From Sipunculus nudus (lineage: Eukaryota > Annelida > Sipuncula > Golfingiida > Sipunculidae): DNA of 64,000 nucleotides. The stretch's first letter is position 1, and each line of letters opens with the position of its first letter. The DNA lies in the NCBI GenBank assembly GCA_026874595.1, contig CM049313.1, positions 36,592,159 through 36,656,158 on the forward strand. The letters run 5' to 3'. The translations under genes were made by a program, and so were the position numbers. A model generated the notes under the pieces. It was not told where the DNA came from, made no database searches, and worked only from the letters and a program-made list of their open reading frames with translations. Positions 18,740 to 58,497 of the stretch are shown in pieces.

Positions 18740-20420
18740 GTTGTAACAACAGTTGAAGGTGATAACATGTGGTCCACTTCTAGTCTTGCCATTATGCCAA
18801 AGCTATTTATGGATGTCTAGAATCTTGATGTGAACTCAGGCTGGCATTATGTGAAAGCTATTTATAGAGACTAAAGGTTTTGATGAGATCTGGTGCTGTT
18901 ACTATGTGAAAGACATTTATAGAAACTTGTATCACCTAGCAAATAGTTATTTTGTCCAACAAAGTGTTTTTCATGCTGATATATTAACTGTTTTCATCAA
19001 TATATTCTGAATATTAATAGATGGCTAGTGAATGCAAAATCAGAATACATCAATCTTATTTGTGGAATAATCTTATGTATACATAAATATCAGTTGACTT
19101 TGTACAGCATAATAATTATTCATAGAATATTTCAGGTCAGATGTTATATCTTTAGACAACTAGGCTATAAGGTTTAATGACTAAGGTTAACATCCGATAA
19201 TTCACTGCAAAATCATTCAAATGGATTGATTAAACTTAATTAAAATAATTATTATTTTGGAGATCATTCTTGAGTAATATGAATCAAAATTTACATTTTG
19301 CAGACACAAGGCGGTCATAATAAGATACAGGAAAATAACAAGTTCAGCTTCTTGTAGATTGGCTAAAATCACTGAACGAAAACCATTTGAAAAGAATGGT
19401 TGTAGTTTGCTAATAATTTCAGAATATTATGGTACAGCCAGTGTGCAGTGCCTTAAGTTAAGTTGGGTGAAATATTTAACAATTAGGCTTGATTGTTTTG
19501 GAGAAGATTTCTGAAGATTACTAGATGAAGGAGGGTTAAATGGCATATTACTAAATTGAAAAGTCTCTAATAAGGTCAAAAATGATTGATGCAAATGATT
19601 GATCGTGTGTGATATATAAGCATTTGGCACTGACGTTTTGCAGAAAGAAGGCTATTGAAGGGCTCAGGTATAATACAGGCTTACTGTTACTATAATACCA
19701 GCTTACTTTAACTCTGTCAAAAATAACCAAAGCAGAACTATTCTAACAAACTTGAGGACTAAAGTAGGATTATTTCTGTGAAATATGAGTTTTCTTGACA
19801 CTTTCTGATTTTTAAAGGTTGGTGGCTAAAGGGGCCAAAATACCAGTCTTGCCCTGTAAATCAAAGGTTGATGCAGGTGGCACAACCAGAACATATTTCA
19901 AAAGTTAGTTATGTAACCAAACATTTCAACAAAATTTTGTGATGCTAGGTGCAACCATTCTTGAGATAGTATGGGTTAATAAAAAGATGACGGATGCTGC
20001 GGGAAAATGTAATAGGTGTCAGGTTAACTAAAAATGTCGTTTAAGCCAGCATGGTGTTCAGATGAAATAAAAAACTAAACCATCCACGGTTAACTAACAG
20101 GCAACGAACATTTCAGGAGAATTCATGAACCTACTGTTGACATATGTATCCAGGTATTGATGAGGGATCTGCTGAATTGTATGTAAATTACATTAATTCT
20201 GGGGTGCTCAAAATGGATTGTGACGAGTATATTAGTCACTGGACTTAATTTCCTATTCCAAAGAACATTTGGGGAATTCTCAGGATGAGAATATACATGA
20301 TTCCAGCCTTTACAGGTACACTTTATGCCCTGTGAACAGAAAAAGTTTCAACAAAAACTTTTCAAAATTAAGATAATGTAGATGGTGACACCAGTCATGT
20401 CGATCAGCTATGGTTCTATG
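18740..20420. repeat. Diverged repeat block, also present at 44080-45540
   Basis: The block shares several short anchors with the later one: GCTATTTATAGA-type phrases, AAAATCACTGAACGAAAACC against AAAAGTCACTGAAAAGAGACC, and GATGCAGGTGGCACAACC (a decayed dyad at 19876-19887) against GATGCAGGTGGCGCCACC at 45049. No coding capacity. Boundaries are approximate. Confidence 0.55.
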
Positions 20421-20902
20421 AAATTGATTAATGCAAATAAGCACAGCAGAACTGATAGAATGCAGATCATGATTTTTCCTGTAGGTTGGATAATAGTGTC
20501 CGATTTAATTTTGTCTTCAGTATGGAGAAATTTCTGAAATTTAGTAGTTTTCAAGGGCAACAGTTACAAGTGTGATTGTGGAGAGAGAGGAAAAGATTTG
20601 TTTAGTGAAATTGTCAGGGCAGAGTTATGAAAAAGTAGCAAGGTTAAGTTTAGAGGAATCGTATTATGTAAATTGGATGGTATGGCGGACAGATAAACAG
20701 GATCATGGAATATGGAATAGGGGAACTGCCTTGAAGAGTGTAGGAAGATTTTCAAAATCCGGTGTAATTTTGAAAGAACTATTTTTTACATTGTGTATTA
20801 TTTACTTGTCAGATTTTTTTAGGTTGAAGAATCTGCCTCTAGGTATATTCAGTGCTCTATATTTTTAGACTTTGATCTTGGTTGAGAATATAAAAAAAAA
20901 CA

Positions 20903-21454
20903 GACAAATGGTTTAAATACATTGATTTATTTTTAACAATCATATATTTTAACATGGACCAGAGGTAACCTATATGCAGGGTTTGAACTGAAGAAGAAAT
21001 TACATGCTTTAATTACGGCTGACCATTGTAAACTGTGATGCACCTCGTCTGTCTCCACTCCGATTTACAATACTAACATTTTTTCAGACAAATGCTTAAA
21101 ATAGATTGATTTATTTTTAAACAATCATGTATTTAAACACAGACAATATCTAACCCTTATGCAGGGTTTGAACAGAAGAACAAATCAGATGCTTTAATTA
21201 CGGCTGGCAAGTGTAAGATGTGATGCATCTTGTCTGTGTCCACTCACACATACAATACTAACATTTTGTAGACAAATGCTTAAAATGGATGGAGTTATTT
21301 TTAACATTCATCTATTTAAAGACAGACAATGCCAGACCCTAATGCAGGGTTTGAACAGAAGAACAAATTATATGCTTTAATTACGGCTGGCCAGTGTAAG
21401 CTGTGATGCATCTCGTCTGTCACCACTTAGACTTACAATACTAACATTTTGCAG
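20903..21454. repeat. 184-bp tandem repeat, three copies
   Basis: GACAAATG starts at 20903, 21087 and 21271, giving an exact 184-bp period. Each unit carries GCAGGGTTTGAAC and GCTTTAATTACGGCTG. Confidence 0.92.
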
Positions 21455-22733: not shown

Positions 22734-24056
22734 ATGTTCCAAGGTAAAATGGTTATTTAGAATGAGCTCTGGGAAAAATAGCAATATCTAGAATACGGGT
22801 AGTCGACAAGTAACTACGTGTATCCGCCAAAATCAGAGGAGGACGGGTTAAGTGAGGCATGGATTGAGTGGCAAGGGGAATAAGAGTGAGATGTGTTCCA
22901 TATTAGAATTGATGTGTGCCACGTAAACATGATTGTAGGTTGTGCAACCTGTCATCAAATCAAGAAAGCTATCCAGGATGTATATGCATGCCGAATTACA
23001 GGTAATTTGGTCAAATGACTGCAAAAATATGAGTGATTTTAACCCAAGGCAAACAAACAGATGGACGTTGTGCAAAAATGGCTGCAGGTGGTGCCACCAT
23101 TTTTGTGTATGTTATAAAGCTATCCAAGGGCTACATTTGTGTAAAAAATTTTCCTGATTGCTGATTGGTCGAACGAGTCCGGAGATACAGGAATGGATGT
23201 CTACAGCGTAAATGTGATTGTAGGTGGCGCCACCTGTCATAAAATCAAGAAAGCTATCTAGGATGTATACGCATGCCGAATTTCAGGTAATTTGGTGAAA
23301 CAACTGCAGAGATATTAGTGATTTTAACCCAAGGCAGACAAACAGATCGATTCTGTGCAAGAATGGCTGCAGGTGGCGCCACCATTTTTGTGTATGTTAT
23401 AAAGCTATCCAAGGGCTACATTTGTGTTAAATGTTTTTCCTTGTTGGTTGAACGGTTCCCGAGATATGAGCTTGGATGTATGCAGCGTGAACGTGAATGT
23501 AGGTGGCGCCACCTGTCATAAAATCAAGAAAGCTATCTAGGATGTATACGCATGCCGAATTTCAGGTGAATTAGTCAAACCACTGCAGAGATATGAGTGA
23601 TATTAACCCAAGGTAGATGAACAGATGGACACTGTGCAAAAATGTCTGCAGGTGGCGCCACCAATTTTTGTGTATGTTATAAAGCTATCCAAGGGCTACA
23701 TTTGTACAAAATAATTTTCCTGATTGGTCAAACGGTTCCCGAGATATGTGGGTTTATGTGTGGAAACAGACGCCCAAATGGATGCTGGGCAGAGAGGAAA
23801 TGTCAGAGGTCAAGGGGAATTGGTTAGGCACCAGTTCACATGTGACCCGATAATTGGTGTAAGTTTTGGAAAAATTCGTCCAGTAGTCTCAGAGGAGTTT
23901 TCCGGAAATGAAAGCAGCGGCGGAGGCGGAACCCGGTCAAAAACATAGTATCCACGAAACTTCATTTCGGCGGATACAATAATTATTAATATAAACCTAT
24001 TAATTTTACATGGATTGTACAAATAGTTATTATAACTAATCGAGGCACAACCCATT
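22734..24056 (+). mobile_element. Dyad-bearing element, copy 1 (1,323 bp)
   Basis: Starts ATGTTCCAAGGTAAAATGG. Subterminal sequence GTATCCGCCAAAA on the left is mirrored by GGCGGATAC near the right end. The body is made of modules carrying the dyad at 22938 (GGTTGTGCAACC), 23087 (GGTGGTGCCACC), 23223, 23372, 23502 and 23651 (all GGTGGCGCCACC), spaced alternately about 149 and 130-136 bp. The right end carries a hairpin at 23948-23977. The apparent ORFs inside are short and repeat with the modules, so they are not genes. Confidence 0.8.
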
Positions 24057-25165
24057 ATGTTCCAAGGTAAAATGGTTATTTAGAATGAGCTCTGGGAAAA
24101 ATAGCAATATCTAGAATACGGGTAGTCGACAAGTAACTACGTGTATTCGCCAAAATCAGAGTAGGACGGGTTAAGTGAGGCATGGATTGAGTGGCAAGGG
24201 GAATAAGAGTGAGATGTGTTACATATTAGAATTGATGTGTGCCACGTAAACATGATTGTAGGTGGTGCCACCTGTCATAAAATCAAGTCCGGAGAAACAG
24301 GAATGGATGTCTACAGCGTGAATGTGATTGTAGGTGGCGCCACCTGTCATAAAATCAAGAAAGCTATCTAGGATGTATACGCATGCCGAATTTCAGGTAA
24401 TTTGGTGAAACAACTGCAGAGATATGAGTGATTTTAACCCAAGGCAGACAAACAGATCAATGCTGTGCAAGAATGGCTGCAGGTGGCGCCACCATTTTTG
24501 TGTATGTTATAAAGCTATCCAAGGGCTACATTTGTGTAAAAAATTTTTCCTGGTTGGTTGAACGGTTTCCGAGATATGAGCTTGGATGTATGCAGCGTGA
24601 ACGTGAATGTAGGTGGCGCCACCTGTCATAAAATCAAGAAAGCTATCTAGGATGTATACGCATGCCGAATTTCAGGTGAATTTGTCAAACCACTGCAGAG
24701 ATATGAGTGATATTAACCCAAGGTAGATGAACAGATGGACACTGTGCAAAAATGTCTGCAGGTGGCGCCACCAATTTTTTGTGTATGTTATAAAGCTATC
24801 CAAGGGCTACATTTGTACAAAAAAATTTTCCTGATTGGTCAAACGGTTCCCGAGATATGTGGGTTTATGTGTGGAAACAGACGCCCAAATGGATGCTGGG
24901 CAGAGAGGAAATGTCAGAGGTCAAGGGGAATTGGTTAGGCACCAGTTCACATGTGACCCGATAATTGGTGTAAGTTTTGGAAAAATTCGTCCAGTAGTGT
25001 CAGAGGAGTTTTCCGGAAATGAAAGCAGCGGCGGAGGCGGAACCCGGTCAAATACATAGTATCCGCGAAACTTCGTTTTGGCGGATACAATAATTATTAA
25101 TATAAACCTAATTATTTTACATGGATTGTACAAATAGTTATTATAACTAATCGAGGCAAAACCCA
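24057..25165 (+). mobile_element. Dyad-bearing element, copy 2 (1,109 bp)
   Basis: A direct head-to-tail copy of 22734-24056 with about 95% visible identity. One module pair of about 214 bp is missing: the sequence jumps from ATCAAG to TCCGGAGAAACAGG, both present in copy 1. Dyads lie at 24333, 24482, 24612 and 24761, spaced 149, 130 and 149 bp. The right-end hairpin is at 25059-25088. Confidence 0.82.
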
Positions 25166-32223: not shown

Positions 32224-32690
32224 TTAATTTAATACATACGAGCCATCAATTTTCCTTGCCCTACTGAAAGCAACATAATGTGCATGTCTCAGTTTCCTAG
32301 TATTTGTCATATCAACAACCACCTGATCAAGTGAACTGCCTTGTGCCTTCCATATTGTTATTGCAGCACCAATTTTCAATGGAAACTGAGAACAAGTTAC
32401 CAGTATATGTCTCCTGCCTGTATGGAATGTCCGCTTGGTGACAAAAAGTGGTGTCCATTCTTTGGATATTCCTGGAGTGTAAAAGGTGACATAATTTCTC
32501 CTGGTGTCTGAACCAACGTTTGAATCTTCAAACTGAACCCAAAGAATACTTGGTACATTATTGCTATGCATATATTGTATGTGCTTCAATATACAAGAAC
32601 AACCATTAGTAATTCCATCTTGAACTGCTATATTGCAGGTGATATCATATGGTAAAACAACAGCAATCTGAAGTGTTTTCAGCAAACCTG
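32224..32690 (-). pseudogene. Helentron Pif1-type helicase, C-terminal part
   Basis: Carries the last helicase motifs: the segment IGAAITIWKAQGSSLDQVVVD corresponds to motif V, and YVAFSRARK to motif VI with its arginine finger. Its upstream end is the junction with the inserted array. Across that junction it continues the protein left at 37268. Confidence 0.85.
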
Positions 32691-32696
32691 CATTTT

Positions 32697-32728
32697 TAGC
32701 TCAGCTGACTTTCAGTCATGCTGAGCTA
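32697..32728. repeat. Terminal hairpin of the 337-bp array element
   Basis: TAGCTCAG and TGAC pair with GTCA and CTGAGCTA. An equivalent hairpin closes the opposite array at 52498-52528, and internal copies occur near 50270-50290, 50510-50520 and 51218-51244. Each copy adjoins a CCGTC/GACGG microsatellite and GATCACTCTTTGTCCG. Confidence 0.85.
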
Positions 32729-35700
32729 TAGCGATCACTCTTTGTCCGTCGTCCGTCTGTCTGTCTGTCCGTCTGTCCGTCTGTCCGTTAACCTGGCACA
32801 AATCGTAACCGCTGGACTTAGAATCTTGTAACTTTACATTCTGAGAGGTCAATGAAAAATCTCCTTGGAAACCAGAAATTAGGTCTCTGTTACCCATATC
32901 CTTCGAGCTATTGGGCCCTAAAGTACCCCCCAGAATAGTCAAAATTTTCATACAAAAACTTTAATATCTCATTAACTACATCACTGATGGTCATGATTTT
33001 TGGCATACATATTTATCATGAGATGTTTCATCAGTTCCTGCAGATTGGTGGCGCTACCTGTATTTTTAGATTTTTTACGAATTTTTTTCTCTATTTCTGA
33101 GACCTTTAAAAATGTGAACAACTGTTAACAGGGCACAAATCGTAAAGACTGGACCTAGAATCTTCATTCTTGACACAGTGAGAGACCTATGAAAAGTCTC
33201 CATGGAAACCAGAAATTAGGTCTCTGTTACCCAAATCCTTTGAGCTATGGGGCCCCAAAGTACCCCCTAGAATAGTACAAAATTTCATACAAAAACTTCA
33301 ATATCTCATTAACTACATCACTGATGGTCATGATTTTTGGCACACATATTGATCATGAGATGTTTCATCAGTTTCTGCAGACTGGTGGCGCCACCTGTAT
33401 TTTTCGATTCTTTTCCAATTGTTTTCTCTGTTTTTTGAGGTCTTTAAAAATGTGGACATCTGTTAACAGGGCACAAATCGTTAAGACTGGATCTAGAAGC
33501 TTTATTCTTTACATTCTGAGAGACCTATGAAAAGTCTCCATGGAAACCAAAAATTAGGTCTCTGTTACCCATATCCTTCGAGCTATGAGGCCGCAAAGTA
33601 CCCCCCAGGATAGTGAAAAATTTCATACAAAAACTTCAATATCTCATTAACTACATCACTGATGGTCATGATTTTTGGCATACCTATTAATCATGAGATG
33701 TTTCATCAGTTCCTGCAGACTGGTGGCGCCACCTGAATTTTCGATTTTTTACGAATTTTTTTCTCTATTTTTGAGACCTTTAAAAATGTGGACATCTGTT
33801 AACAGGGCACAAATCGTAAAGACCGTACCTAGAATCTTCATTCCTGACATTCTGAGAGACCTATGAAAAGTCTCCATGGAAACTAGAAATTAGGTCTCTA
33901 TTACCCATATCCTTCAAGCTATGGGGCCCCAAAGTACTCCCAAGAATAGTGAAAAATTTCATACAAAAACTTCAATATCTCATTAACTACATCACTGATG
34001 GTCATGATTTTTGGCATACATATTAATCATGCGTTGTTTCATCAGTTTCTGCAAACTGGTGGCGCAACCTATATTTTTCGATTTTTTACGAATTTTTTTC
34101 TCTATTTTTGAGACCTTTAAAAATGTGGACATCTGTTAACAGGGCACAAATCGTTAAGACTGGATCTAGAAGCTTTATTCTTGATATTCTGAGAGACCTA
34201 TGAAAAGTCTCCATGGAAACCAAAAATTAGGTCTCTGTTACCCATATCCTTTGAGCTATGAGGCCCCAAAGTACCCCCCAGAATAGTGAAAAATTTCATA
34301 CAAAAACTTCAATATCTCATTAACTACATCACTGATGGTCATGATTTTTGGCTTACCTATTAATCATGGGATGTTTCATCAGTTCCTGCAGACTGGTGGC
34401 GCCACCTGTATTTTTCGATTTTTTACGAATTTTTTTCTCTATTTTTGAGACCTTTAAAAATGTGGACATCTGTTAACAGGGCACAAATCGTAAAGACCGG
34501 ACCTAGAATCTTCATTCCTGACATTCTGAGAGACCTGTGAAAAGTCTCCATGGAAACTAGAAATTAGGTCTCTATTACCCATATCCTTCAAGCTATGGGG
34601 CCCCAAAGTACTCCCAAGAATAGTGAAAAATTTCATACAAAAACTTCAATATCTCATTAACTACATCACTGATGGTCATGATTTTTGGCATACATATTAA
34701 TCATGCGTTGTTTCATCAGTTTCTGCAGACTGGTGGCGCAACCTATATTTTTCGATTTTTTACGAATTTTTTTCTCTATTTTTGAGACCTTTTAAAATGT
34801 GGACATCTGTTAACAGGGCACAAATCGTTAAGACTGGATCTAGAAGCTTTATTCTTTAGATTCTGAGAGACCTATGAAAAGTCTCCAAGGAAACCAAAAA
34901 TTAAGTCTCTGTTACCCATATCCTTTGAGCTATGAGGCCCCAAAGTACCCCCCAGAATAGTGAAAAATTTCATACAAAAACTTCAATATCTCATTAACTA
35001 CATCACTGATGGTCATGATTTTTGGCATACATATTAATCATGAAATGTTTCATCAGTTTCTGCAGACTGCGGACGCCATCTGTATTTTTTCGATTTTTTA
35101 CGATTTTTTTCTCTATTTTTGAGACCTTTAAAAATGTGGACATCTGTTAACAGGGCACAAATCGTAAAGACTGGACCTAGAATCTTCATTCCTGACATTC
35201 TGAGAGACCTATGAAAAGTCTCCATGGAAACTAGAAATTAGGTCTCTATTACCCATATCCTTCAAGCTATGGGGCCCCAAAGTACTCCCAAGAATAGTGA
35301 AAAATTTCATACAAAAACTTCAATATCTTATTAACTACATCACTGATGGTCATGATTTTTGGCATACATATTAATCATGCGTTGTTTCATCAGTTTCTGC
35401 AGACTGGTGGCGCAACCTATATTTTTCGATTTTTTACGAATTTTTTTCTCTGTTTTTGAGACCTTTAAAAATGTGGACATCTGTTAACAGGGCACAAATC
35501 GTTAAAACTGAATCTAGAAGCTTTATTCTTGATATTCTGAGAGACCTATGAAAAGTCTCCATGGAAACCAAAAATTAGGTCTCTGTTACCCATATCTTTT
35601 GAGCTATGAGGCCCCAAAGTACCCCCCAGAATAGTGAAAAATTTCATACAAAAACTTCAATATCTCATTAACTTCATCACTGATGGTCATGATTTTTGGC

Positions 35701-37265
35701 ATACATATTAATCATGAGATGTTTCATCAGTTTCTGCAGACTGCGGACGCCATCTGTATTTTTTCGATTTTTTACGATTTTTTTCTCTATTTTTGAGACC
35801 TTAAAAGATGCAGTCATCTGTTAACAGGGCACAAATCATAACAACTGGACCTAGAATCTTAATTTTTGACATTGGGGGAGGCCCATGAAAAGTCTCCTTT
35901 GAAACCTGGAATTAGGTCTCTGTTACCCAGATTCTTCAAGCTATGGGGCTCTGAAGTACCCCCGCTGAATATTGAAAATTTGATACAAAAACTGAAATAT
36001 CTGAACAACTAATGCATTGATTACCATGGTTCTTTGCATGGATATTGATCATGGAGTGTTTCATAGGTTTCTGCAGACTGGTGGCGCCACCTGTATTTTT
36101 CGATTCTTTACAAATTTTTTTCACTATTTTTGAGACCTTTAAAGATATGAACATCTGTTAACAGGGCACAAATTATAACAACTGGACCTAGAATCTTCAT
36201 TCTTGACACACTGAAAAGTCTCCATGGAAACCTGAAATTAGGTCTCTGTTACCCATATCCTTCATGCTGTAGGGCCCCAAAGTACCCCCCAGAATAGTCA
36301 AAAATTTCATACAAAGAGATCATGAGATGTTTCATCAGTTTCTGCAGACTCCCTAGATACCTGGAATTAGGTCTCTGTTACCTATATTCTTCAAGCTATG
36401 GGGCTTGTTACACATTTTTACAATTTTTTTCTCTATTTTTAAGACCTTTAAGGATGTGGTTATGTGTCAACAGGGTACAAATTGTAACAACTGGACCTAG
36501 AATCTTCATTCTTGTCATGCAAGGAGGCTCATGAAAAGTGTCTGTGGAAACCTTAAATTAGTTCTCTGTTTCCCATATCCTTCAAGCTATAGGACTCCGA
36601 AGTATCCCTAAGAATAATGGACAATTTGATACAAAAGCTGAAGTAATTGACCAACTAATGCAGAGGTCACCATGATTCTTTACATGCATATTGATTATGG
36701 AGTGTTTCATCAGTTTCTTCAGACTTATGGTGCAACCTATATTTTATTAAATTTTTTTGAATTTTTTTTTCTATTTTTGAGACCTTTAAGGATGCTGTCA
36801 TCTGTTAACATGGCACAAATTGTAACAACTGGACCTAGAATCTTCATTCTTGTCATGCAAGGAGGCCCGTGAGAGTGTCTTTGGAAATCTGAAATTAGGT
36901 CTCTGTTACCCATATCCTTCACGCTATAGGACTCCGAAGTATCCCTCAGAATAATGGAAAATTTGATTCAAAAGCTGAAGTATCTGAACAATTAATGCAG
37001 AAATCACTATGATTCTTTGCATGGATGTTGACCATTAAGTGTTTTTATTAGTTTCTGCAGACTGGTGGAACCACCTGTATTTTTGTTAAAGTTTACGCAT
37101 TTTTTTCCATATTTTGAGATATATAAATTCAGATACAATCTTCGCTTATTCTTTAATCTGTTTGATGCTTCAGTTGAATGGGTATATACTACCATTCAGA
37201 TGATAAAATTTCCTTTTGCAAATCTCTTCCCAGTCAGCTGAGCGTCATGACCCATGGGTCACTTG
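32699..37265 (-). repeat. 337-bp tandem array inserted in the Helentron helicase (array I)
   Basis: At least ten consecutive units have the dyad position at 33047, 33384, 33722, 34058, 34395, 34732, 35069, 35406, 35743 and 36080, a 336-338 bp period. More diverged units run to about 37250. Variants alternate (GGCGCAACC at 34058, 34732 and 35406), giving a 674-bp dimeric higher-order repeat. The left end is the TAGCTCAG hairpin plus (GTCC)n and the right end is GACCCATGGGTCACTTG. TTTTA stands at both junctions (32694-32698 and 37266-37270), a possible target duplication. No genes: minus-strand frames of 60-80 codons are repeat artefacts. Confidence 0.9.
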
Positions 37266-37267
37266 TT

Positions 37268-38995: not shown

Positions 38996-38997
38996 AG

Positions 38998-40522: not shown

Positions 40523-40527
40523 TGATT

Positions 40528-41341
40528 TTACAGATGTAATATATCTGTTGCTAGTAAAGTGGGGTCTATACTGTCTGGCCAGCTATCAGAATTCTTTACA
40601 GAGTGTCTGAACCATGTCTGATTACAACAACAACATACATATATGGGACATTCATATATAGATGTATGCAATTTCAATATACACTCTGTTAGATCTGCGC
40701 CCTGTTTACTCTTCAAATTAACTATTTTTTTCATCCTTTCTGTGAGATTCATCAGTTCTTTTTTTGTGCCCTCGTGGCTGTATTTCTGCGAGTTTCGGTT
40801 TTTCCGTGTAGAAGGTCAGTTCTTTTCCTTTTTATGGCGATTCTCTCAGCTTCTCTGAGAAAATCATCCTCTGATCTTCTTCTTTTTTTACAGGTTGATT
40901 CTCTGACACGTTCCATTTGTCTGTAAATTTTATTTTGTCTAGCAGTTTACCTCTGTTGTTTGTCAGCTGTTCTTTCTTTTTGTCTGTAAGATTCTTTTGT
41001 CTCAAGTTTGCTTATGTTGTTTCTCAGAATTTCTTTCTTTTTGTCTATAACTTTCATTTTGTCTGGCAGTTTGCCTCTGTTGTTTGTCAGCTGTTCTTTC
41101 TTTTGTCTGTAAGATTCTTTTTGTCTGGCAGTTTGTTTCTGTTGTTTCTCAGCATTTCTTTCTTTTTGTCTATAAGTTTCAATTTGTCTGGCAGTTTGCC
41201 TCTGTTGTTTGTCAGCTGTTCTTTCTTTTTGTCTGTATGATTCATTTTGTCTGGCAGTTTGCCTCTGTTTTCTTTTTAGGTCTTTTCAATTTGCTTTGTT
41301 CCTCTGAGCTTGATTCATTATTTTCTTTTGCATGTACTCTT
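40528..41341 (-). pseudogene. Helentron basic coiled repeats and Cys-rich segment
   Basis: From about 41300 to 40900 a unit of about 63 bp repeats five or six times and encodes RQTARQ, E.YRQKER and A.KQQ, a highly basic, helix-prone 21-residue repeat. Several units have one-base indels, so the frame is lost. The next piece (40528-40752) includes CPIYVCCCCNQTWF, a probable zinc-binding Cys cluster just before Rep. On the plus strand the same repeats create spurious frames rich in Phe, Ser and Val. Confidence 0.7.
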
Positions 41342-42159
41342 TCAAATATTGTTTTTTGTCATTTTTTGTTGCTGATCTTCAAAATATTGTAATATCAATT
41401 GAACATCATGTTTAGAAACGTTTCCATCAGAAGTTGAGCTTTCGTTGAATTTATCAACGACGCTCATGTTTGCCTGGGTTCGATCCACTGCCTGGCTGTC
41501 TGAGTTAGTTGTCTGTTTAGTTTGTATAGTATAGAAATATGTTACTTCAAACATGGTTGCTTTAATCAAATATGCGTAGTTTGATATATATTTGAAATGT
41601 TCTGATGGCAGTGTTAGAAGAACCGATGTGCCACAAGGTGTAGCATACCCAAGATGATTTCTGCTATGCGGATCAAACACATAGTAATAATTCTGGTGAT
41701 ACAAAATTGCAATCGCATTTCCTCCTACAATTATTAGACTCTCTTGCAAGTGACTTGTGACAAAGCATCTTGGTAAAACATATAGGGTGCTTGCACATCA
41801 GAATGATTAAGGAAACCACCTGTGATCAAAGTGGGTTTTACCTCGAAATTATGATCAAGGCATTGTATATACTCCGGTATTTCATCCCATGCCATGTATC
41901 CTTTATCAGGGACATCTGACATTAATGTTCTGTACAAATGATCACCTTCAATTAATATTGTATCCATGTCATTTGCTTGCAATTCAGCAAGGTCATGTAT
42001 GGTGGAATATAGAAGAACAACAACTGCATTGGGGACACATTGTTTCCCGATCGACTCTGATGGAAATTGATGATCACCTTGGTGAAAAGTGCCTCTCGCA
42101 ATTTTAGCACTAGATACAGCAGGGACTGGTATAGCTGAAGCCATGGTTGGGCAGATCAC
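41342..42159 (-). pseudogene. Helentron N-terminal cysteine-protease-like domain
   Basis: Two overlapping frames (41734-42159 and 41342-41749) joined by a one-base shift near 41740. The first carries HQGDHQF and GKQCVPNAVVVLLYS, a candidate nucleophilic Cys at a helix start, followed by TILIEGDHLY. The second carries YYVFDPHSRN, a D-x-H pair. A Cys plus D-x-H triad in this layout resembles the C76/OTU-type deubiquitinase domains found in large DNA virus tegument proteins and in some transposon polyproteins. The role in transposition is unknown; removal of ubiquitin-like tags is the family-based guess. Confidence 0.65.
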
Positions 42160-42640
42160 ATAGATTAAAAAACTAGTCCCTTTGTGTCAAGTAGGGGGGA
42201 AATCTTACAAGTAAAGAAAATCTGAGAGTAGTGGCTGTGAGAATGGCAGGAGTCGTTTTATGAAAGTTAAAGAAAACTTTAAAACTGATAATGAAAATGT
42301 TGAGAGGAGAAGAAAAAAGAAAAGGAGTACCTTCTTATTATTATAAAAACTGCTATGGAAAACGGAATACTAGAGGTGCCAAATGGAGTTTCAGCCTTCA
42401 AACAAAGCTGAATGCAGAAGAAAGTTAAGCAGTAGTTCGTGAGAATATGGTAAGTACAAAGAACAAGTACTACAGGCCTCATGCGAACCTGTGCAAAGTT
42501 TGGGAGTATGAATGGAGGTTTATTTTAAAAATTTAATATTGATCCTCTTAAGTCCTGCATATCTACCTTAGTCATTATGATTATAGGAAAATGGACGTTT
42601 CGGACCTGCAAGTTTCAGACTAGGACATTTTAAAACTAGA
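42160..42640. other. Flank of the Helentron
   Basis: Contains a 67-codon minus-strand frame without recognisable content. The plus strand at 42258-42340 encodes a basic, lysine-rich stretch that could be worn transposon coding sequence. No 5' terminus of the Helentron was identified. Confidence 0.35.
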
Positions 42641-44030
42641 ATATGGGTAGTCGACAAGCGACTATGTGTAATCAGAGTGGGACGGGTGAAGTGAGGCATG
42701 GTTTAAGTGGCAAGAGGAATAGAGTGAGGTGTGTTGCATATTAGCATGGATGTCTGCAGTGTAAACGTGAATGTAGGTGGTGCCATCAGGATATATAAAC
42801 CTGCAAAATTTCAGGTGGATAAGTCAAACCACTGCTGAGATATGAGTGATTTTATCCCAAGGCAGATGAACAGATGGACGCTGTGCATAAGTGGTTGCAG
42901 GTGGCGCCCCCGGTTTTGCCTATGATGAAGAGATATGTGAGCTATCTATACACAAGCAACATTTTGGCCCAATCGGTCAAACGGTTCCCGAGATATGGGC
43001 TTGGATGTCTGCAGAGTAAACGTGAATGTAGGTGGCGCCACCTTTCATAAAACAAGAAAGCTGTCCAGGATGTATAGCATGCAAAATTTCAGGTGGATAA
43101 ATCTAACCACTTCTGAGATATGAGTTATTTTATCCCAAGGCAGATGAACAGATGGACTCTGTGCATAAGTGGTTGCAGGTGGCGACACTAGTTTGCCTAT
43201 GATGAAGAGCTATGTGAGATCTATACACATGCAAACGTAAAAGTAGGTGGCGCCACCTGTCATAAAATTGATAAGGATGTTTAAACCTGCAAAATTTCTG
43301 GTGGATAAGTCAAACCACTTCTGATATATGAGTGATGAACAGATGGACGCTGTGAAAAAATCGTTGCAGGTGGTGCCACCATTTTTAGTGTGTTATAAAG
43401 CTATCAAAGGGCAACATTTGTGCAAAATTTTAAGCCTGATCGGTCCAACGGTTCCCGAGATATGTGGGTTTATGTGTGGAAACAGACGCACAAGTGGACG
43501 CTGGGCAGAGAGGAAAGGTCAGAGGTGAACCAAGAATGAGGGGGCAGCAGTTCACATGTGACCGATCATAATTCCTAATTTTAAAAAATTCTTCCCAGTG
43601 GTTATGGAGGAGTTCTCCAGAAACCTATGCGGTGATGGCGGTAGCTTCAGCGTCCGACTGAAAACATAGTATCCGCAAAACTCTGTTTGGGCGGATACAA
43701 TGATTGTAGCTGGCACCACCAGTCTTATATACAACGAAGAGATATATAAATATGCCGAATGTCAGACTGATATGTCAAACCCCTCCTGTGAAATAAGCAG
43801 GGACATACACTGTGCAAAATTATTGTAGGTGGCGCCACCAGTCTTGTACACTATAAAGCTACCCGATATGTATAAACATGCCCAATTTTAGGCTGATGTT
43901 TCAAATTCCTCTGAAGAAATAAGCAGGCGCATACACTGCAAAAGTCAATGTAGGTGGCACCACCTGTCTTGTAAATGAGAATACCATCAAAGACGCATAG
44001 ACAGGTCAAAATATCAGTCCAATACATCAA
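42641..44030 (+). mobile_element. Dyad-bearing element, diverged copy 3, with a short array behind it
   Basis: Related to the 22734 and 24057 copies: GGGTAGTCGACAAGCGACTA near the start, and GATGAACAGATGGACGCTGTG modules. Dyads are at 42776 (decayed), 42900 (GGTGGCGCCCCC), 43031, 43246 and 43369. The terminal hairpin is at 43669-43698. From 43703 a 115-125 bp unit repeats about three times, with dyads at 43828 and 43953 (GGTGGCACCACC). Short ORFs inside are repeat artefacts. Confidence 0.75.
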
Positions 44031-44079: not shown

Positions 44080-45540
44080 GCAGTTGCCCCCGAGTGACCT
44101 GTGACAAATTGCTGCCTCAAGCTACTGCACTGAGTGAACTCTTGACCTGCACCTGGCTAGACTGACTGAACTTTTGACCTGTACCTGGCTGCACTGAGTG
44201 AACACTTGACCTGTTGCATAATCAGACACAGTTGGCAGTCTGCCAAAGCTATAAATAGATTCAGGCTGAACTTTGGTGCCAGAAATGATGCAGTGAGCAG
44301 TCTGCCAAAGCTATAAATAGAATGCAGCTACTGCACTGAGTGAACTCTTGACTTATACCTGGCTGCACTTCTTCCAATCCTGGCACTGTGCCAAAACTAT
44401 TTATAGAGCTGACATCATCTTGGCTTATAGCCAAATTCAAGGCACTGGCAATCTTCCAATGGTATACCATTATATAGCTAACATATATAGCCATATATAG
44501 CTAACATATATGGTAAAATGACTCAATTCTATCTCCATAATTCAGCCAAAAATCATTCATGTGGAACCATTAATGACAATTATTATAAAAATTATTGTAG
44601 GGATTATTCTTGTAAAATATTAAACAAACTGGCTTCAGTGGCATCAGTCGAAAAACGTTTCGCAGGTTTATAACTCATATAGGAAGATACAGCAAACTGG
44701 CTAAGCCAAAAAGCACTGAACCAAAACCATTTGACCAAACTTGAATTATCAACATCTGAGGACAATTAATGTGAAAGATTTAAGAATTTGGCCCAGTGGT
44801 TTTTGAGAAGAAGATCTATGTAGCCACTGAGCTAAAATGGGCTGTTATGGCATATGACTAAATTCAGCTTCCCATAACTTAGCCAAAAGTCACTGAAAAG
44901 AGACCATTTGAACAAACTTCAGAAAGCACTACCCTAGAATCATTTCTGTGCAAAATTAAACATTTTGGCCATATGGTTTCAGAGAAGAAATTTTTTTTGT
45001 AGCCCTCAGTGTGATACAGGCACTGATGACCCCGTACAAAAAAGGCCGATGCAGGTGGCGCCACCAATACCTCAATTTCAGATATGACCTATGTGACCAA
45101 CAATGGCATAAAATTTGGTGATGATAGGTCCAGCCGTTTCTGAGATTTAAATTTTAATATGCTTTTTTGCACAGTTAACAAAGTTCAACCTCCTGTAACT
45201 CGGCCAAAAATCTCCGAACTGGAACCATTCGAACAAACTTGAGAAAAATTGTTCCAGGGATCATTTCTGTGAAATATTGGACAATTTGGCTGGACAGTTT
45301 CGGAGAAGAAGATTTTTAAAGCTTTTTAAGCTTTTTCCCTATAAAATCTAAGAAAGTGCAGTTAGAAAAAAACTAAACAAAATCCGATATAGTTTTTTGG
45401 ATGACTGATTTTTTTGCAAAAAAAATTGGTGATGCTAGCTCCTGCCGTTTTGAGATACCTATGGTTAACGTACAGACGACGCACGACACACGACGGACGA
45501 CGCCGCACCATCGCAAAACTCACAGGTTCGCTAAAAAAAG
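44080..45540. repeat. Diverged repeat block related to 18740-20420
   Basis: Begins with a 40-50 bp minisatellite around CACTGAGTGAACTCTTGACC (44110-44360). It then holds three or four poorly conserved units with GCCAAAA.TCACTGAA and CCATTTGAACAAACTT phrases. One intact dyad is at 45054-45065. The end is marked by CGACGGACGACGCC microsatellite near 45490. No genes. Confidence 0.6.
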
Positions 45541-48480: not shown

Positions 48481-48959
48481 TACTATATATTTGAAGAAAA
48501 AAGACCTGCACTACAAGAGTTGCAGGTAATAATTACAAAAGTGTATACTTGTGCTGTTATGATATTTAACTTTTGCCATTAGAGATTGTGGTGTGTTTAA
48601 TTATTATTTCTTTATTTATATATATCTAGCTTTTATTGTAGTAGGCAGATCACATGTGTAAACATCATCACATTATATAATATTGTGGCTACATGTTCCA
48701 TATTAACAACAGTATAATTACATTATACATTCTCACAAGTATTTATGAAAATGGTTCATATTTTCAGTTAACAATGTAACCATATTCAACTTATATTAAC
48801 TGGAGGCAATGAAGAACCTGGGAAAAAATTGAACAAACTACAATATAAAAAATCTTTAATAAACATCATAAGATGGTCAATTACTCGGATCAATTCACCA
48901 ATTAAGAAAAAAACTATTTCATTTATCTTGTCACCATGGGATATATGTATCTGTAAAAA

Positions 48960-51900
48960 TTAGAAAAATAAAGGTGATGCCACCACTCTACAGGAAATGA
49001 TGAAACACTCCATGATCAATATGCATGGAAAGAATCAAGGCAATCAATGTATTAGTTATTCAGAAAATTTTCAATCATCTATCTGGGGGAACTTACAACC
49101 CCAATAGGTCGGAGGATATGGGTAACAGAGACCTAATTTCAGGTTTGCAAGGAGATTTTTGATGGACCTCCCAGGATGTCAAGTAAGAAGAATCTAGGTC
49201 CAACTGTTACAATTTGTGCCCTGTTAATGGATGACCACTTTATTTGAAGGTGTCAAAAATAGAGAAACAAATGTGTAAAAATAAAAAAAAATATAGGTGG
49301 CACCACCAGACAGAAGGAACTGATGAAACATTCAATGATTAATGTGCAAACAAAAAATAATGGCAATTAATGCATTACATTCAGATCCTGGACCTTATGT
49401 ACCATATTTTTAATTATTCTGGGGGCAGTACTTATGATCCCCATAGCTCAAAGGATATGGGTAACAAAGACCTAATCTCAGGTTTCCAAAGAGATTTGCC
49501 TTGCATCTTTCTGAATGTACAGTTTAAAGATTCTAGGTCCAACTGTTACGATTTGTACCCTGTTAACAGATTAGCGCTTCTTTGAAGGTGTCAAAAATAG
49601 AGAAAAAAAAATGCATAAAAATTCGAAAGAAATACAGGTGGTGCCACCAGTCTGCAGAGTTGATGAAACACTCCATGATCAACATGCATGCAAAGAATCA
49701 TGGTGATCAATCCATTAATTATTCAGATACTGGAGCCTTTGTGTCAATTTTTTAATTATTCTGGGGGATATTCCTGAGCCCTATATATAGCTCGGAGGAT
49801 ATGCTTAACAGAGACCTATTTCAGGTTTCCAAGGAGATTTTTCATGGCCCCCTCGGGAATTCAAATTGGAAGATTCTAGGTCAAATGGTTATGATTTGTG
49901 CCCTGTTTACAGACGACCGCATCTTTGAAGGTCTCATAAATAGAGAAAAAATGCATATGAATTCGAAAAAATACAGGTGGCACCACCAGTTTGCAGGAAC
50001 TGATGAAACACTCCATGATGAATATGCATGCAGAGAATCATGGTAATCAATGCATTAGTTTTTCAGATACTGGAGCTTTTGTATAAAATTTTTAATTATT
50101 CTGGTAGGTACTTTAGAGCCCCATACCTCGGGGGATATGGGTAACACAAACCTTATTTCAGGTTTCCTAGGAGATTTTTTTTCATGGACCTCCCTGGATG
50201 TCAAAATAGAAGATTCCAAGTCCATGGTTACAATTTGTGCCTGGTTAACAGACGGAGAGACGGACAAAGAGTGATCATTATAGCATGACATTCAGTCAGC
50301 TGAACCAAAAATTTTTAATTATTCTGGTAGGTACTTTAGAGCCCCCTACCTCGGTGGATATGGGTAACACAAACCTTATTTCAGGTTTCCTAGGAGATTT
50401 TTTTCATGGACCTCCCTGGATGTCAATATAGAAGATTCCAAGTCCATGGTTACGATTTGTATCTGGTTAACAGACGGACGACGGACAAAGAGTGATCACT
50501 ATAGCATGACATTCAGTCAGTTGAACTAAAAATTCTTAAAAAATCGAAAGAATAAAGGTGGTGCCACCAGTCTGCAGAAACTAATGGAACATTCCATAAC
50601 CAATATCCATGAAAAGAATCATGGTGATCAATGCATTAGTTAATCAGATACTTAAGCTTTTGTATCAAATTTATCATTATTCTCGGGGGTACTTCGAAGC
50701 CCCATAGCTCAGAGATTTTGGATAACAGAGACCTAATTTAAGGTTTCCAAGAAGACATTTCATGGGCCTCCGTGCATGTCAAGATAGAAGATTCTAGTTC
50801 CAGTCGTCACAATTTGTGCCCTGTTAAAAGATGACCACATCTTTTAAGGTCTAAAAAAATTGAGAAAAAAAAAATTGTAAAAAACCCGAACAAATACAGG
50901 TGGTGCTACCAGTCTCCAGAAATTGATGAAACACTCCATGAGCAATATCCATGCATACAATTATGGTGATCTCAGCATTAGTTGTTCAGATACTTCACCT
51001 TTTGTATCAAATTTTCCATTATTCTGGGGGGGGGGGTACTTCGGAGACCCATAGCTCGAAGAATATGATTAACAGAGACCTAATTACAGGTTTCCAAGGA
51101 GATTTTATATGCACCTCCCAGGATGTCAAGTTACAAGATTCCAAGTCCAGTGGTTACGATTTGTGCCTGGTAAACAGACAGACGGACGGACGACGGACAA
51201 AGAGTGATTGCTATAGCTCAGATGATTTTCAGTCAGCTGAGCTAAAAATCATGACCATCAGTGTTGTAGTTATTGAGATACAGCAGTTTTTGTATAAAAT
51301 TTTTCATTATTCTTGGGGGTATTTTGGAGCCATACAGCTTAAAGGATATGGGTAACAAAGACCTAATTTCAGGTTTCCATGGAGACTTTTAATTGGTCTC
51401 CCTGTGTGTAAAGAATGAAGATTTTAGGTCCAGTTGTTATGATTTGCACCCTGTTAACAGATGTTCATATCTGTAAAGCTCTCAAAAATAGAGAAAAAAA
51501 TTGTAAAAAAAATCCGAAAAAAATACAGGTGCTGCTACCAGTCTGCAGAAACTGATGAAACACTCCATGATTAATATCCATGCAAACAATAATGGTGATC
51601 TTTGCATTAGTTGTTCAGATACATCAGCTTTTGTATCAAATTTTCAAATATTCTGAGCTGAGTGCCTTAGCTCGAAGGATATGGGTAACAGAGACCTAAT
51701 ATCAGGTTTCCACGGAGACTTTTCATGGGTCTCCCTGTCTGTCAAAAGTGAAGATTCTAGGTCCAGTCGATACAATTTGTACCCTGTCGACAGATAACTA
51801 CATCCTTAAAGGTCTCAAAAATAGAAAAAAAAATTGTAAAAATTTACAAAATACAGGTGGAGCCACCAGTCTGCTGATGGAACACATCTTGATCAATATG

Positions 51901-52530
51901 TATGTCAAAAATCATGACCATCAGTGTTGTAGTTATTGAGATTTTTTTTTATCAAATTTCCATTATTCTGGGGGGGGGGGGGGGGGGGTAATTCGGAGCC
52001 CCACAGCTCAAAGGATATAGGTAACGGAGCCCTTTTTCAGGTTTCCATGGAGACTTTTCATGCGTCTCCCTGTGTGTCAAGAATGAAGATTCTAGGTCCA
52101 GTCTTTACAATTTGTGCCCCATTAACAGTGTTCACATTTTTAAAGGTCACAAAAATAGAGAAAACAATTCGTAAAAAAATCGAAAAATACAGGTGGCGCC
52201 ACCAGTCTGCAGAAACTGTTGAAACATCTCATGATCAATTTGTATGCCAAAAATCATGACCATCAGTGTTGTAGTTATTGAGATATTGAAGTTTTTGTAT
52301 GAATTTTTTACTATTCTGGGTACTTTAAGGCCCCATAGCTCCAAGGATATGGGTAACAGAGACCTAATTTCTGGTTACCATGGAGACTTTTCATAGGTCT
52401 CTCAGTGTGTCAAGAATGAAGATTCTAGGTCCAGCGGTTACGATTTGTGCCTGGTTAACGGACGGACAGACGGACGACGGACAAAGAGTGATCGCTTTAG
52501 CTCAGATGACTTTCAGTCAGCTGAGCTAAA
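48960..52530 (+). repeat. 337-341 bp tandem array (array II), opposite orientation to array I
   Basis: Units carry GCAACCAATGCATTAGTTAT-like phrases, GGATATGGGTAACAGAGACC and a dyad near their start: 49296, 49637, 49976, 50557, 50899, 51528, 51856 and 52192. The step is 328-342 bp except where terminal segments with the hairpin and GACGGAC microsatellite interrupt (50230-50300, 50460-50530, 51180-51250). This looks like several elements of one family inserted in tandem. The last unit (52192) has an intact GGTGGCGCCACC. It ends with the hairpin at 52498-52528. It is the reverse complement family of 32699-37265. No genes. Confidence 0.88.
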
Positions 52531-53526: not shown

Positions 53527-53593
<67 letters not shown>

Positions 53594-53597: not shown

Positions 53598-53619
53598 AGA
53601 GAGTCTACCCCAGACAACA

Positions 53620-55078: not shown

Positions 55079-55244
55079 AGGCGTTTACCGGTCGGTATTG
55101 GGATTACGGCAGCAGAACGCGGTATATGCGTTATGCGGTATAGATTCGCGTGGAGCATTTATCGGGCGGGCGATAAACACTGAGATATAGGCCCGATGAT
55201 GTAAAAACCCGCATAAACGCACTGCATCCGTAGATTACATAAAC

Positions 55245-55300
<56 letters not shown>

Positions 55301-55423: not shown

Positions 55424-56071
55424 TTAATCATACCATGTATGAAAAGTGTGTCATCTTATTCAACTGAATATTGGTACCCTGAATATTCACTCAAAGATGT
55501 ATTATTTCTAAAAAAAATATCAGCACCCTAGCTAGCTCAAACTACATATCTCAAAATGGAAGAACGGGGAATTCTCTTATGCATTTATATAGCTTTATTC
55601 ATGCAAGACATAAAAGGCTCGCTTATTTCCTACACAACCCACACCATTTGTGAAACTGCATTTAGCACGCTTCTTTAAATAAAATCAATATAACATGCAA
55701 TATAAAAAATCTACTTTTCATATAAAAAGACTATATATAATAAACAAGATTGCCCATGCAAGTGTCTGTCCCACAAGATTGATATAGGCCTTTAATTACT
55801 AAGAACACAAGAATCACTTTATAATATATTCAATCATGCATCGTACAAATGTATTTGTAAGATTTGATTCTATGACATTATTTTAGACCTATAGGAGACT
55901 CGTATAACTCATACAGGATCTGTCAAATATTCATTATTCACTGTTATACAGTGTATTGCCTTCACTACAATAATATTCTTCGTGATTGCAAAGAATCCAC
56001 AATTGCAGAAAAAATCAAATCACCATTAACCGAATGTGCTAAACGGTGTATTTAATCAAACCGACAAGTAA
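55424..56071. other. Gene-free stretch
   Basis: AT-rich, no repeat or coding signal recognised. Confidence 0.45.
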
Positions 56072-56445
56072 AACTGCTGTGTTTCCATGTATCCGCAAAA
56101 ATCGGATCCGCAAAAGACGTATACGTACGTTCCATAGTGCACAGTCCGCAAAAACTGTTTCCATAAGTACTTATACGTTTTTTTGCGAATACCCTAGCTA
56201 TCGCGTGCCTCTTTTGAAACTGCAAGGACGTCAGCCAGGAAGAAGGTCAATATGTCTCGTCTCACCTAGCGCCGGGGCACTGTAGGGGGATGTAGGCATT
56301 TTTCCCATCGATGCGGTCTATTTTTGCGGATTCGCATGCGGAGCACGTTAAAACGTATGCATGGAAACAGTTCATCTTAAAAAGAGGGTTGCGATATTTT
56401 GCGTACGAGACGTACGAGATTTGCGGATACATGGAAACACAGCTT
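56072..56445. mobile_element. MITE C, nested terminal inverted repeats
   Basis: The left end CTGTGTTTCCATGTATCCGC matches the reverse complement of the right end, GCTGTGTTTCCATGTATCCGC less its first base, followed by AAA on both sides. An inner pair repeats the core: ACTGTTTCCATAAGTACTTA near 56152, and ACGTATGCATGGAAACAGTT near 56357. No coding capacity. Same architecture as 729-1112 and 10636-10920. Confidence 0.78.
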
Positions 56446-57390
56446 TATTAATCAGCAAGGTTCATTTTGCAAGCATGCATGCAGCCTTCATTGTGTTTTG
56501 AACATTGGATAAACTTTAAATGGTTAAATATGAATAGAAGAACACGCATATTAACACACACACACATATTATCAGATATATATATATATATATATATTCA
56601 TATGCGGAGAATGTCCATATGAAAAATAATCTGAATCATGTATTATCATATATGCATCACATTAAATGATTTTATTAATAATATAAATATACGATTTGTT
56701 TCAGTATTGAACATGCAGGGGCATTATATAAATATAAAATAACCTAGCCATATACTGATATGTTTAAATATGAAACATTTAATTAATATGTTTTTTGTCA
56801 AAATACATATTTAAAATATATATAATTAAAATAAAATTAGTTTTATTTATCTTTATAAATATGATTCATATGGAACTCCAAATTAATCTTAAACAAGTAA
56901 GTAAAAAAAAATTACTGAATATATATTAAAAAACTGAATGGTTAATATTACAGAAGGGTGTTTTTTATTATAAATAAACCTGGCAACCTAAACTCTGAAG
57001 TTTAAAGAGTAAAATGATTATATTTTATATTAAAACAAATTTATTCTTTTCGATGTAATTTCGTAACCAGTGATATTTGGACACTTATAACCCCTCTGTA
57101 TTGATGCCTCCTCTGAATTATCATTTAAATTCAGGAAATAAACAAGAAAGAGGTTCAGTACTTGTTATTACATGTCATACACGTACGGTTTTGCGTACGT
57201 GTATATTGTACATTCAGCCGGCAAAGGTATAAAATTCGCGGTCACATCTGGCATGCTCTTCAACTTTCCGAGGCGGGAACTTTAATATGCGCCAGCCATG
57301 ACGTCACGTTCACGCGAGACCGTGATAGCTGTGCGCGGCCAATTCAAAAGCATTGGTGTTGCTGTACTGGTACTGGGCAGTGCTGCGTGA
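56446..57390. other. Gene-free, very AT-rich stretch
   Basis: A short (TA)n lies at 56576-56598. At 57299-57306 TGACGTCA (a perfect CRE) and at 57339 a CCAAT motif sit in a locally CpG-richer patch (57230-57370). This could be a promoter for the downstream DUF4806 gene, but no exon links them. Confidence 0.35.
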
Positions 57391-58497
57391 CCTCTTTGTT
57401 TGGTAAACATACGTGTTCCTCTCTTGGCAGGTGAACTATATGTGCAAGATGAAAGATCTGAGATGAAATGTTTGGCTGAAAATGCATCCACATCTTTTTA
57501 AAGATGTGTCCTGTGACCTTGACCTTTGACCTCATGACCCCAAAATCAATTGGAGTCTTGCTTTTTCAATGGGACATATATAAGTCAAGTTTGAAATCAA
57601 TACATCAATAAAAGCAGGAATTATCATCCAGAAACTAATTTTTGGACAGATAGCTCCTGTGGCCTTGCCCTTTGACCTTGTGACCCCAAAATTTATATGG
57701 ATCATCCACTACTGGCAAGTGAGCTATATATTCAAGATGGAAGACCTAAGATGAAAGTTTGGCTTAAAATGCATCCACAGTATCTTTTAAAATGCCAGTC
57801 CAGTGACCTTGACCTTTGACCTCATGACCCTAAAACCTATAGGGTTCTTACTTTAGTGGTGGGCCATACATAAGTCATGTTTGAAATCCATATGGCTATC
57901 AACACTGGAGATATCATAAGAGGTGTGTGATTTTCACCATATATGGCAATATTCAAGGTCAAGGCCACTATCATAGGAAAGGTCATGACCCCAATTTAAA
58001 TAAACATCATCCCATAACCCATACCTATGTATATGCATAATATAAATTAAAAATAAATCTGTCCATTAGTTTTTGACTTATAATGCTCACAGTACTGTAA
58101 GGTGGCAATTTTGGGGGTATTAAACGGCACAAAAACAAGTAAAGAATAATAGGTGGCGCCACCAGTTTCTGGAACATGACAACCCTATCCATGATCTTCC
58201 ATCAACTTGATTTTGGGATAAATCCATGCAAGATTTCTTGAGATATTAAAGAATTTGTGTGATTTTCCCCAAAATTGGACCTATTCAAGGTCAAGGACAC
58301 TCTCCTAGTAAAGGTCATGACCTCATTTTAAATAGGCGTCGTCCTCTCACCCATATCTATACATATACGAAGTTTGGTAAAGTTCCGTGAAATATTTTTT
58401 GGGTTATCGCTCCAACAAGATTTATATGCGGCGGCGGCGGCGGCGGCGGGACCGGTATGAAAACATAGTATCCCCCGACTTTGTCTGGGGATACAAA
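57391..58497 (+). mobile_element. Repeat element with TGACCT half-sites, ending in a hairpin
   Basis: A unit of about 290 bp is repeated about twice (CTTGGCAGGTGAACTATATG at 57425 and ACTGGCAAGTGAGCTATATA at 57710). Each copy contains TGACCTTGACCTTTGACCT (57513 and 57804), with a degraded one near 57660. A dyad GGTGGCGCCACC is at 58152-58163 and a (GCG)n run at 58431-58449. The element ends at a perfect hairpin, 58468-58494: GTATCCCC and GAC pair with GTC and GGGGATAC. It lies in the region before the first visible DUF4806 exon. Confidence 0.7.

Follow-up and report, generated by a model that had tools for sequence, protein, structure and literature searches.

Why should one 12-bp palindrome, GGTGGCGCCACC, recur across so many different repeats? 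The question was raised by a stretch of 64,000 bases of the genome of Sipunculus nudus (hereafter the window; C8:36,592,159-36,656,158), in which this dyad is found at 18 exact sites and at 14 more with one mismatch, i.e., 32 sites, against a mean of 0.03 and a largest value of 1 in 100 shuffles. The count of about 30 intact or slightly decayed copies given in an earlier note, made from the sequence alone, was therefore correct, and with up to two mismatches the number rises to 41, although two of the two-mismatch sites (13,724 and 29,131) look chance-like in their context by eye. The copies also lie where the earlier note had placed them, except for the block at 18.7-20.4 kb, which has decayed ones only. 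We found that the dyad is the first box of an oriented two-box module carried by central repeats, now much diverged, of elements that resemble non-autonomous Helentrons (HINE) in their structure. It is probably the site of a sequence-specific protein that the element needs, with selection acting on element lineages.

The excess extends to the whole genome (1.4265 Gb in 153 contigs, with C1-C17 of 61-111 Mb, C18 of 52 kb and C19 of 92 kb). The genome-wide count of the 12-mer that the earlier note had proposed gave 111,729 exact copies, about one per 12.8 kb, versus 14 for the reversed control, and 218,178 versus 575 when one mismatch was allowed. The reversed controls and the window shuffles exclude chance as the origin of this abundance; the more than 110,000 copies are there because rolling-circle transposons carry GGTGGCGCCACC as half of a two-part module. 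Contexts were taken from the window, from 18 spaced stretches of 10 kb and from 40 short stretches around listed exact dyads of contig 1. Of the 32 window copies, 24 are preceded by CA or followed by TG, none being flanked by both, and every one has A at -1 or T at +13. The dyad is thus extended in most places, as had been noted, and the CAGGTG E-boxes proposed for its flanks do form on one side in those 24 copies, but on both sides in none.

The second box is GAGATAT. The complete module reads (T R Y) A-GGTGGCGCCACC, then 72-80 nt, then GAGATAT, and it is oriented: genome-wide, the exact dyad followed at this distance by GAGATAT has 63,298 matches (31,372 and 31,926 on the two strands), whereas the reversed pattern was never found. 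These represent at most 57% of the exact dyads, because a dyad flanked by boxes on both sides counts twice. With up to one mismatch, GAGATAT lies 70-84 nt from the dyad in 24/32 window copies. For exact dyads at least 200 bases from the end of a stretch, with the box on either strand, the values were 29/41 in contig 1, 9/12 in the spaced stretches and 16/18 in the window, while control offsets of the same width gave 0-5. The statement that the repeats have little in common outside the dyad had overlooked this box, as well as a weak homology elsewhere. The module faces the 3' hairpin in every element with a located hairpin, and the distance from GAGATAT to that hairpin is 200-238 nt in superfamilies A (five loci), C (two) and E (one), which amounts to eight of nine hairpins found; the ninth (locus L050) is another structure. 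The terminal hairpins of A, C and E differ from each other despite the similar distance to the module.

Both boxes are conserved across families. A profile blind to the dyad gave 73 hits (E<1e-3) in the 18 spaced stretches and the window, 62 of them spanning the dyad, and in these the agreement was 0.911 in the dyad columns versus 0.660 in the others. In the 18 stretches alone (24 hits), the values were 0.887 and 0.666, the dyad window ranked second of 117, behind only its own one-base-shifted version, and the best window not overlapping the dyad was the GAGAT box (0.844). The 62 dyads comprise 27 exact copies, 17 with one mismatch, seven with two and 11 with more (one of these a gap), and both halves are equally kept (0.895 and 0.892). 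The polarity of the module is clear in the same hits, with T at -4 in 92%, T at +15 in 94% and A at -1 in all, although these columns were not masked in the profile and the figure for column -1 may be inflated. Further columns showed Y at -2 in 95%, S at -3 in 62% and T at +13 in 26%. The suggestion that a short palindrome had been preserved while its surroundings diverged was thus borne out across families, also by a profile that did not see it.

The repeats had been described as unrelated families. However, to judge from the profile, the interval between the boxes and the genome-wide module, they seem to be relatives that have drifted far apart, all with one polarity of the module. Five superfamilies (A to E), each with members in which the dyad is intact, cover 38/40 of the listed exact dyads of contig 1 (A 11, E 9 plus E2 3, B 6, C 6 and D 3), 10/12 in the spaced stretches and 18/18 in the window. 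Among the unassigned dyads, one of contig 1 (L061) had sequence on one side only and another (L012:8560) is, by eye, a truncated E copy. Identity over the 72-nt interval between superfamilies was 0.30-0.39 at the best near register, versus a background of 0.25-0.28. The best register exceeded the background mean in 10/10 pairs, but with z of only 1.1-4.3, and in three pairs (A-B, B-C and D-E) some unrelated register scored higher, so that pairwise homology alone is weak and near saturation. A stronger test was a profile built without the superfamily in question and with both boxes masked, which beat all of 500 shuffles (preserving base composition only) in 6/15 cases for A, 32/45 for E, 3/4 for B, 3/14 for C and 2/3 for D. 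From these comparisons, the superfamilies most likely share an ancient common descent. The earlier remark on how little they share is correct, but the label of unrelated families lacks support.

The carriers have the anatomy of HINE. Among eight 3' ends examined, seven fold as hairpins (z -3.0 to -4.9), the end of superfamily B at 45.5 kb being the one that gave no fold. Sub-terminal inverted repeats (subTIRs) were established for superfamilies E and C. In E, the partner of GTATCCGCCAAAA (near 22,820) is TTTTGGCGGATAC (about 25,087), a comparison made across two adjacent copies, with one mismatch within either single copy; in C, GCTCAGCTGACT near 37,240 on the minus strand pairs with AGTCAGCTGAGC of the 3' hairpin. 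An RGAC-type microsatellite together with central tandem repeats between the end modules was seen for superfamily C, where a TGTC/TGTCCGTC tract (32,743-32,788) adjoins the array of 337-bp units and GGACGGACAGACGGACGACGGAC precedes the end at 52.5 kb.

What we observed directly is a two-box module of set spacing and orientation, its Helentron-like context and the conservation of both boxes across families in which the interval between them is nearly saturated. That the dyad was kept in many transposon lineages while most of the DNA around it changed points to a protein-binding site, and so do its equally kept halves, its conserved outer bases, its better conservation than that of flanking CpGs, its fixed place and polarity and the factor-like motif that can stand in its place. 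The dyad would be read by a sequence-specific, probably dimeric, DNA-binding protein, either a host factor or one associated with the Helentron, and the bound protein would be needed for propagation of the element, for example for its transcription, an open state or its copying. Selection would have acted on element lineages rather than on host copies, and individual inserted copies would then decay almost neutrally. Such decay is indicated by the two CpG transitions, which make up 45,683 of about 106,449 one-mismatch copies in the genome (43%). Within families, the dyad was indeed only slightly better kept than its flanks, with 0.902 (784 cells) versus 0.841 (13,068 cells) at non-CpG sites and 0.821 (156 cells) versus 0.694 (757 cells) at CpG sites, in a pool of non-independent cells from E_a, E_b, C and A (24 dyad-selected copies were dropped over five families, and B was excluded because its consensus does not contain the dyad). 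The advantage is present in E_a, E_b and C. With strong conservation between families and a small edge within them, we conclude that it is lineages that keep the dyad, while single copies decay nearly neutrally.

Several observations weigh against a protein site. In superfamily A, the dyad of eight unselected copies scored 0.700 versus 0.735 for the flanks, and 14 unselected B copies give a consensus without it, so some repeats manage without the dyad. Within the 337-bp family of the window (25 units, gaps counted), the dyad reached 0.743 versus 0.793 for the unit, a printed rank of 230 of 334 counted from zero. The 42 training copies of the profile all had the dyad and GAGATAT with up to one mismatch, some of them from tested loci, and dyad-less branches may be under-sampled. 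The scarcity of exact dyads outside recognised repeats (2/40 in contig 1, 2/12 in the spaced stretches and 0/18 in the window) speaks for the site, but the number is lowered by having drawn the family representatives from the same loci as the assigned dyads. A simple homodimer site would have symmetric flanks, whereas here A stands at -1 in all hits and T at +13 in 26%; this asymmetry suggests a complex that departs from full symmetry or a second protein bound on the upstream side. Finally, the proposal is read from sequence and names no protein. The earlier note held that its idea would fail if all the repeats descended from one recent element and the dyad were no better conserved than its flanks. 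Between families this is not what we found, since descent looks common but ancient and the dyad stands out, whereas inside single families its edge is modest in E and C and absent in A and B.

These last figures bear on one alternative, that the dyad has no function and has been kept by accident through common descent and gene conversion among abundant repeats. All families are probably related, and conservation within them is only slightly above that of the flanks or absent, as this explanation would have it. However, conversion tracts would homogenise the adjacent 72 nt too, and that interval is nearly saturated (0.30-0.39) while the dyad and GAGATAT are still recognisable. We therefore regard an accident of this kind as improbable.

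If a protein reads the dyad, CTCF is a candidate, as the earlier note had suggested. SINEs (short interspersed nuclear elements) have spread CTCF sites in mammals, and Helentrons might have done the same here for a host CTCF or a CTCF-like insulator protein binding the AGGTGGCGC core. The CTCF consensus consists of a core, AGRKGGCGC, and an upstream CCASY. In the orientation of the module the core fits well, with A at -1 in all hits that have a letter there, Y at -2 (95%) and dyad positions 1-8 kept at 0.79-0.98. Element HS+44 of the alpha-globin locus is a mouse CTCF site. GTGGCGCCACCT lies inside a guide RNA used for deleting it, according to the part of the source consulted. An annelid is also reported to have CTCF motifs, and cephalopods to have CTCF-like ones, in the portions of those sources consulted. 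However, CTCF needs no palindrome, and positions 10-12 (ACC), which fall outside the core, are kept as well as the rest (0.90-0.93). The upstream CCA is missing, with T in 92% of the hits at -4, where A is expected (Y at -2 in 95%, S at -3 in 62%). The small number of dyads outside recognised repeats in contig 1 and the spaced stretches also argues against long-term retention by the host. From the motif match, CTCF seems to account for only part of the site, and we consider it an unlikely reader of the dyad.

The same outer bases speak against an E2F-type or other host transcription factor, by which rolling-circle replication might be tied to S phase. The central TGGCGCCA of the dyad is also the centre of the palindromic E2F consensus, TTTGGCGCCAAA, in which a run of T precedes the GGCGCC core and a run of A follows it. 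In the dyad, these places are taken by GG and CC, whose conservation (0.90-0.93) equals that of the core. E2F sites amplified by miniature inverted-repeat transposable elements (MITEs) and Helitrons have been described in Brassicaceae (PMC12595863, seen in part). On balance, an E2F-type site is quite improbable here.

A perfect palindrome within a rolling-circle element could also act through its secondary structure, either by folding into a hairpin or cruciform when the intermediate is single-stranded or by promoting recombination between arrays. In the mollusc satellite phBglII400, a 12-bp palindrome is associated with 13 of 16 array junctions, going by the part of the report consulted (PMC5139131). 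We observed one comparable case, the truncated E copy at L012:8560, in which a junction with the 3' end of an element lies about 7 bp past the dyad, an apparent internal deletion breakpoint beside the palindrome like that reported for the satellite. The folding itself is weak: of two family contexts of 24 nt, one gave -2.3 kcal/mol (z -0.07) and the other -3.1 kcal/mol (z -1.08), and only a fully palindromic 16-nt form, which was seen in 0/32 window copies, folds better (-4.1, z -2.28). Where both arms had changed, one of five pairs was still complementary, in a handful of cases. The palindromic double variant GATGGCGCCATC has 431 copies in the genome, a number whose meaning depends on the counts of the single-change and non-palindromic variants; GATGGCGCCACC, GATGGCGTCACC and GGTGGCGTCACC are the variants for that comparison of palindromic and non-palindromic doubles. 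Selection on a cruciform or hairpin, the other option offered at the outset, is thus poorly supported by these few data, and we give it little chance.

A protein-recognition site, the reading that we favour, is also in line with what replaces the dyad. The superfamily A element at 57.4-58.5 kb has two repeats, separated by about 350 nt, whose good alignment, judged by eye, begins at GAGATAT and continues downstream; one has the dyad and the other has GTGACCTTGACCTTTGACCTCATGACC at about the same place. At 57490-57850 of this element, repeats rich in TGACCT half-sites (TGACCTTTGACCT) fill the place of the dyad. We take these half-sites to resemble the nuclear-receptor DR1 element. TGACCTTTGACCT was found in nine copies in 244 kb, with none for the reversed control. 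Since DR1-like half-sites can stand in place of the dyad, and since B repeats without the dyad also exist, this position seems to hold exchangeable protein-binding cassettes. One may go further and propose, tentatively, that the Helentrons of this lineage own an internal cis element not described before, made up of the dyad and GAGATAT, with about 76 nt between them and a constant distance to the 3' hairpin, that would be read by one dimeric protein at more than 110,000 identical sites, the dyad being swappable for sites of other factors. We hold this fuller scheme to be possible rather than likely. If it were true, the network of dyads could dominate the chromatin occupancy of that protein and supply ready-made regulatory or architectural sites.

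The coordinates of the carriers in the window are collected in Table 1, together with those of a broken autonomous Helentron-like element.

Table 1. Dyad-carrying elements and Helentron remains, in window coordinates
Feature	Position	Strand	Details
HINE, superfamily E	22820..23974	+	Two dyads in each period of about 280-285; 5' subTIR GTATCCGCCAAAA near 22,820; 3' terminal hairpin near 23,948
Dyads of this E element	23087, 23223, 23372, 23502, 23651	+	
Second HINE copy, superfamily E	24143..25087	+	Dyads 24261, 24333, 24482, 24612, 24761; 3' hairpin near 25,059
HINE, superfamily C	32698..37250	-	About 12.5 units of 337 bp; 3' hairpin 32,727-32,698; 12-bp subTIR partner near 37,240; element placed between helicase pieces of the broken Helentron
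Dyads of this C element	33047 to 36080; two-mismatch copy 37064	-	
HINE, superfamily E variant	42620..43694	+	Dyads 42776 (two mismatches), 42900, 43031, 43178 (two mismatches), 43246, 43369; 3' hairpin near 43,669
Trailing short array, E2 type	43697..43985	+	Dyads 43709 (two mismatches), 43828, 43953; begins directly after the hairpin
Superfamily B repeats	44125..45540	+	One exact dyad, 45054; GAGATTT 76 nt downstream; adjoining B repeats without dyad
Decayed B-like repeats	18700..20440	+	Dyad remnant with two mismatches at 19876, another with three near 20381 (by eye)
Superfamily C elements	48951..52527	+	335-340-bp units; orientation opposite to the 32.7-37.2 kb array; 3' hairpins 51,215 and 52,499
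Dyads and decayed dyads of these C elements	48973-52192	+	
Superfamily A element	57400..58495	+	Last repeat with dyad 58152; upstream repeats with TGACCTTTGACCT-type half-sites; 3' hairpin near 58,468
GAGATAT box, superfamily A	58240..58246	+	76 nt downstream of the dyad; second half of the module
Broken autonomous Helentron-like element	32224..42186	-	Split by the 337-bp array
Herpes_teg_N, broken Helentron	41.3-42.2 kb	-	Weak matches, two pieces; presumably an OTU-like protease
Helitron_like_N, broken Helentron	39.4-40.4 kb	-	
PIF1 helicase, broken Helentron	37.6-38.3 kb	-	
Helicase C-terminus-like piece, broken Helentron	32.2-32.7 kb	-	

None of the 41 dyad-like sites of the window falls inside the coding pieces of the broken Helentron, which also has a 63-bp tandem array (40,916-41,269). 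Other repeats without the dyad are a HINE-like element of 180-bp units (25377-26160), whose GCCCC-type hairpin at 26.1 kb (-15.1 kcal/mol) is one of the seven folding ends, and a 183-bp tandem repeat in three copies (20901-21451). A 27-bp tandem repeat of 16.6 copies (11591-12035) lies inside an open frame (11,426-12,130). Another open frame, at 8560-10131 on the plus strand, matches the N-terminal domain of glycosyl hydrolase 79 (heparanase-like, E 1.1e-22), and a tRNA-Phe gene (GAA) was found at 63633-63705 on the minus strand. A ribozyme or a known RNA as the context of the dyad was discarded, since an Rfam scan of 18,600-58,900 gave four weak microRNA matches, all under the gathering scores.

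What makes this case of interest is that deeply diverged transposons, with little else in common, have brought a perfect 12-mer to one copy per 12.8 kb in a genome of 1.4 Gb, an amplification that is, to our knowledge, unusual. The dyad offers a handle on the role of the satellite-like central repeats of Helentrons and on the proteins that such elements recruit. String searches of the literature, made with GGTGGCGCCACC and GTGGCGCCAC only, returned no report of the motif: GGTGGCGCCACC appeared only in a paper on a bacterial endochitinase, and none of the papers containing GTGGCGCCAC was on molluscs or Helitrons, judging by title. Viral or microbial occurrence of the module was also discarded, with AGGTGGCGCCACC and GAGATAT 72-80 nt away in one viral and three prokaryote contigs and no match of the repeat profile to viral and prokaryote contigs below E 1.4.

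Recognition motifs amplified by transposons are known, among them those of CTCF in mammals. For the E2F sites of Brassicaceae, we know of no second box at a fixed distance. They resemble the dyad as a short factor motif mostly inside transposons, here MITEs and Helitrons, but differ in the outer bases and the host (PMC12595863, in the part seen). The ISX Helitron of Drosophila miranda, as far as its description was consulted (PMC6598467), disperses the binding motif of dosage compensation, and thus a Helitron family spreading a protein recognition motif has a precedent; there the protein complex is known and the family is one, whereas here the families are several and ancient and the protein is unnamed. 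Closest in anatomy are the HINE of Crassostrea gigas (Cg_HINE) and DINE-1, for which the sections consulted (PMC7492417, PMC4067079) describe subTIRs, a 3' palindrome, a GTCY/RGAC-type microsatellite and dispersed central tandem arrays. All these features, with central arrays genome-wide, have their likeness in Sipunculus nudus. Those sections name no GGTGGCGCCACC box, while here one box recurs, similarly placed and spaced, in several HINE groups that differ in their termini. The bivalve satellites BIV160, Cg170 and DTC84 are diverged repeats with two well-conserved motifs and, in DTC84, a conserved palindrome near the repeat junction (PMC5139131, compared by description and in the part seen). 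Novelty is threatened most by the possibility that repeats of the BIV160 type already contain the dyad and GAGATAT motifs. That bivalves have HINE whose central repeats share motifs is, by these partial sources, already known. New, as far as the two string searches reach, are the motif itself, its scale, the occurrence of one two-box module in HINE groups with different termini and the contrast with intervals near saturation.

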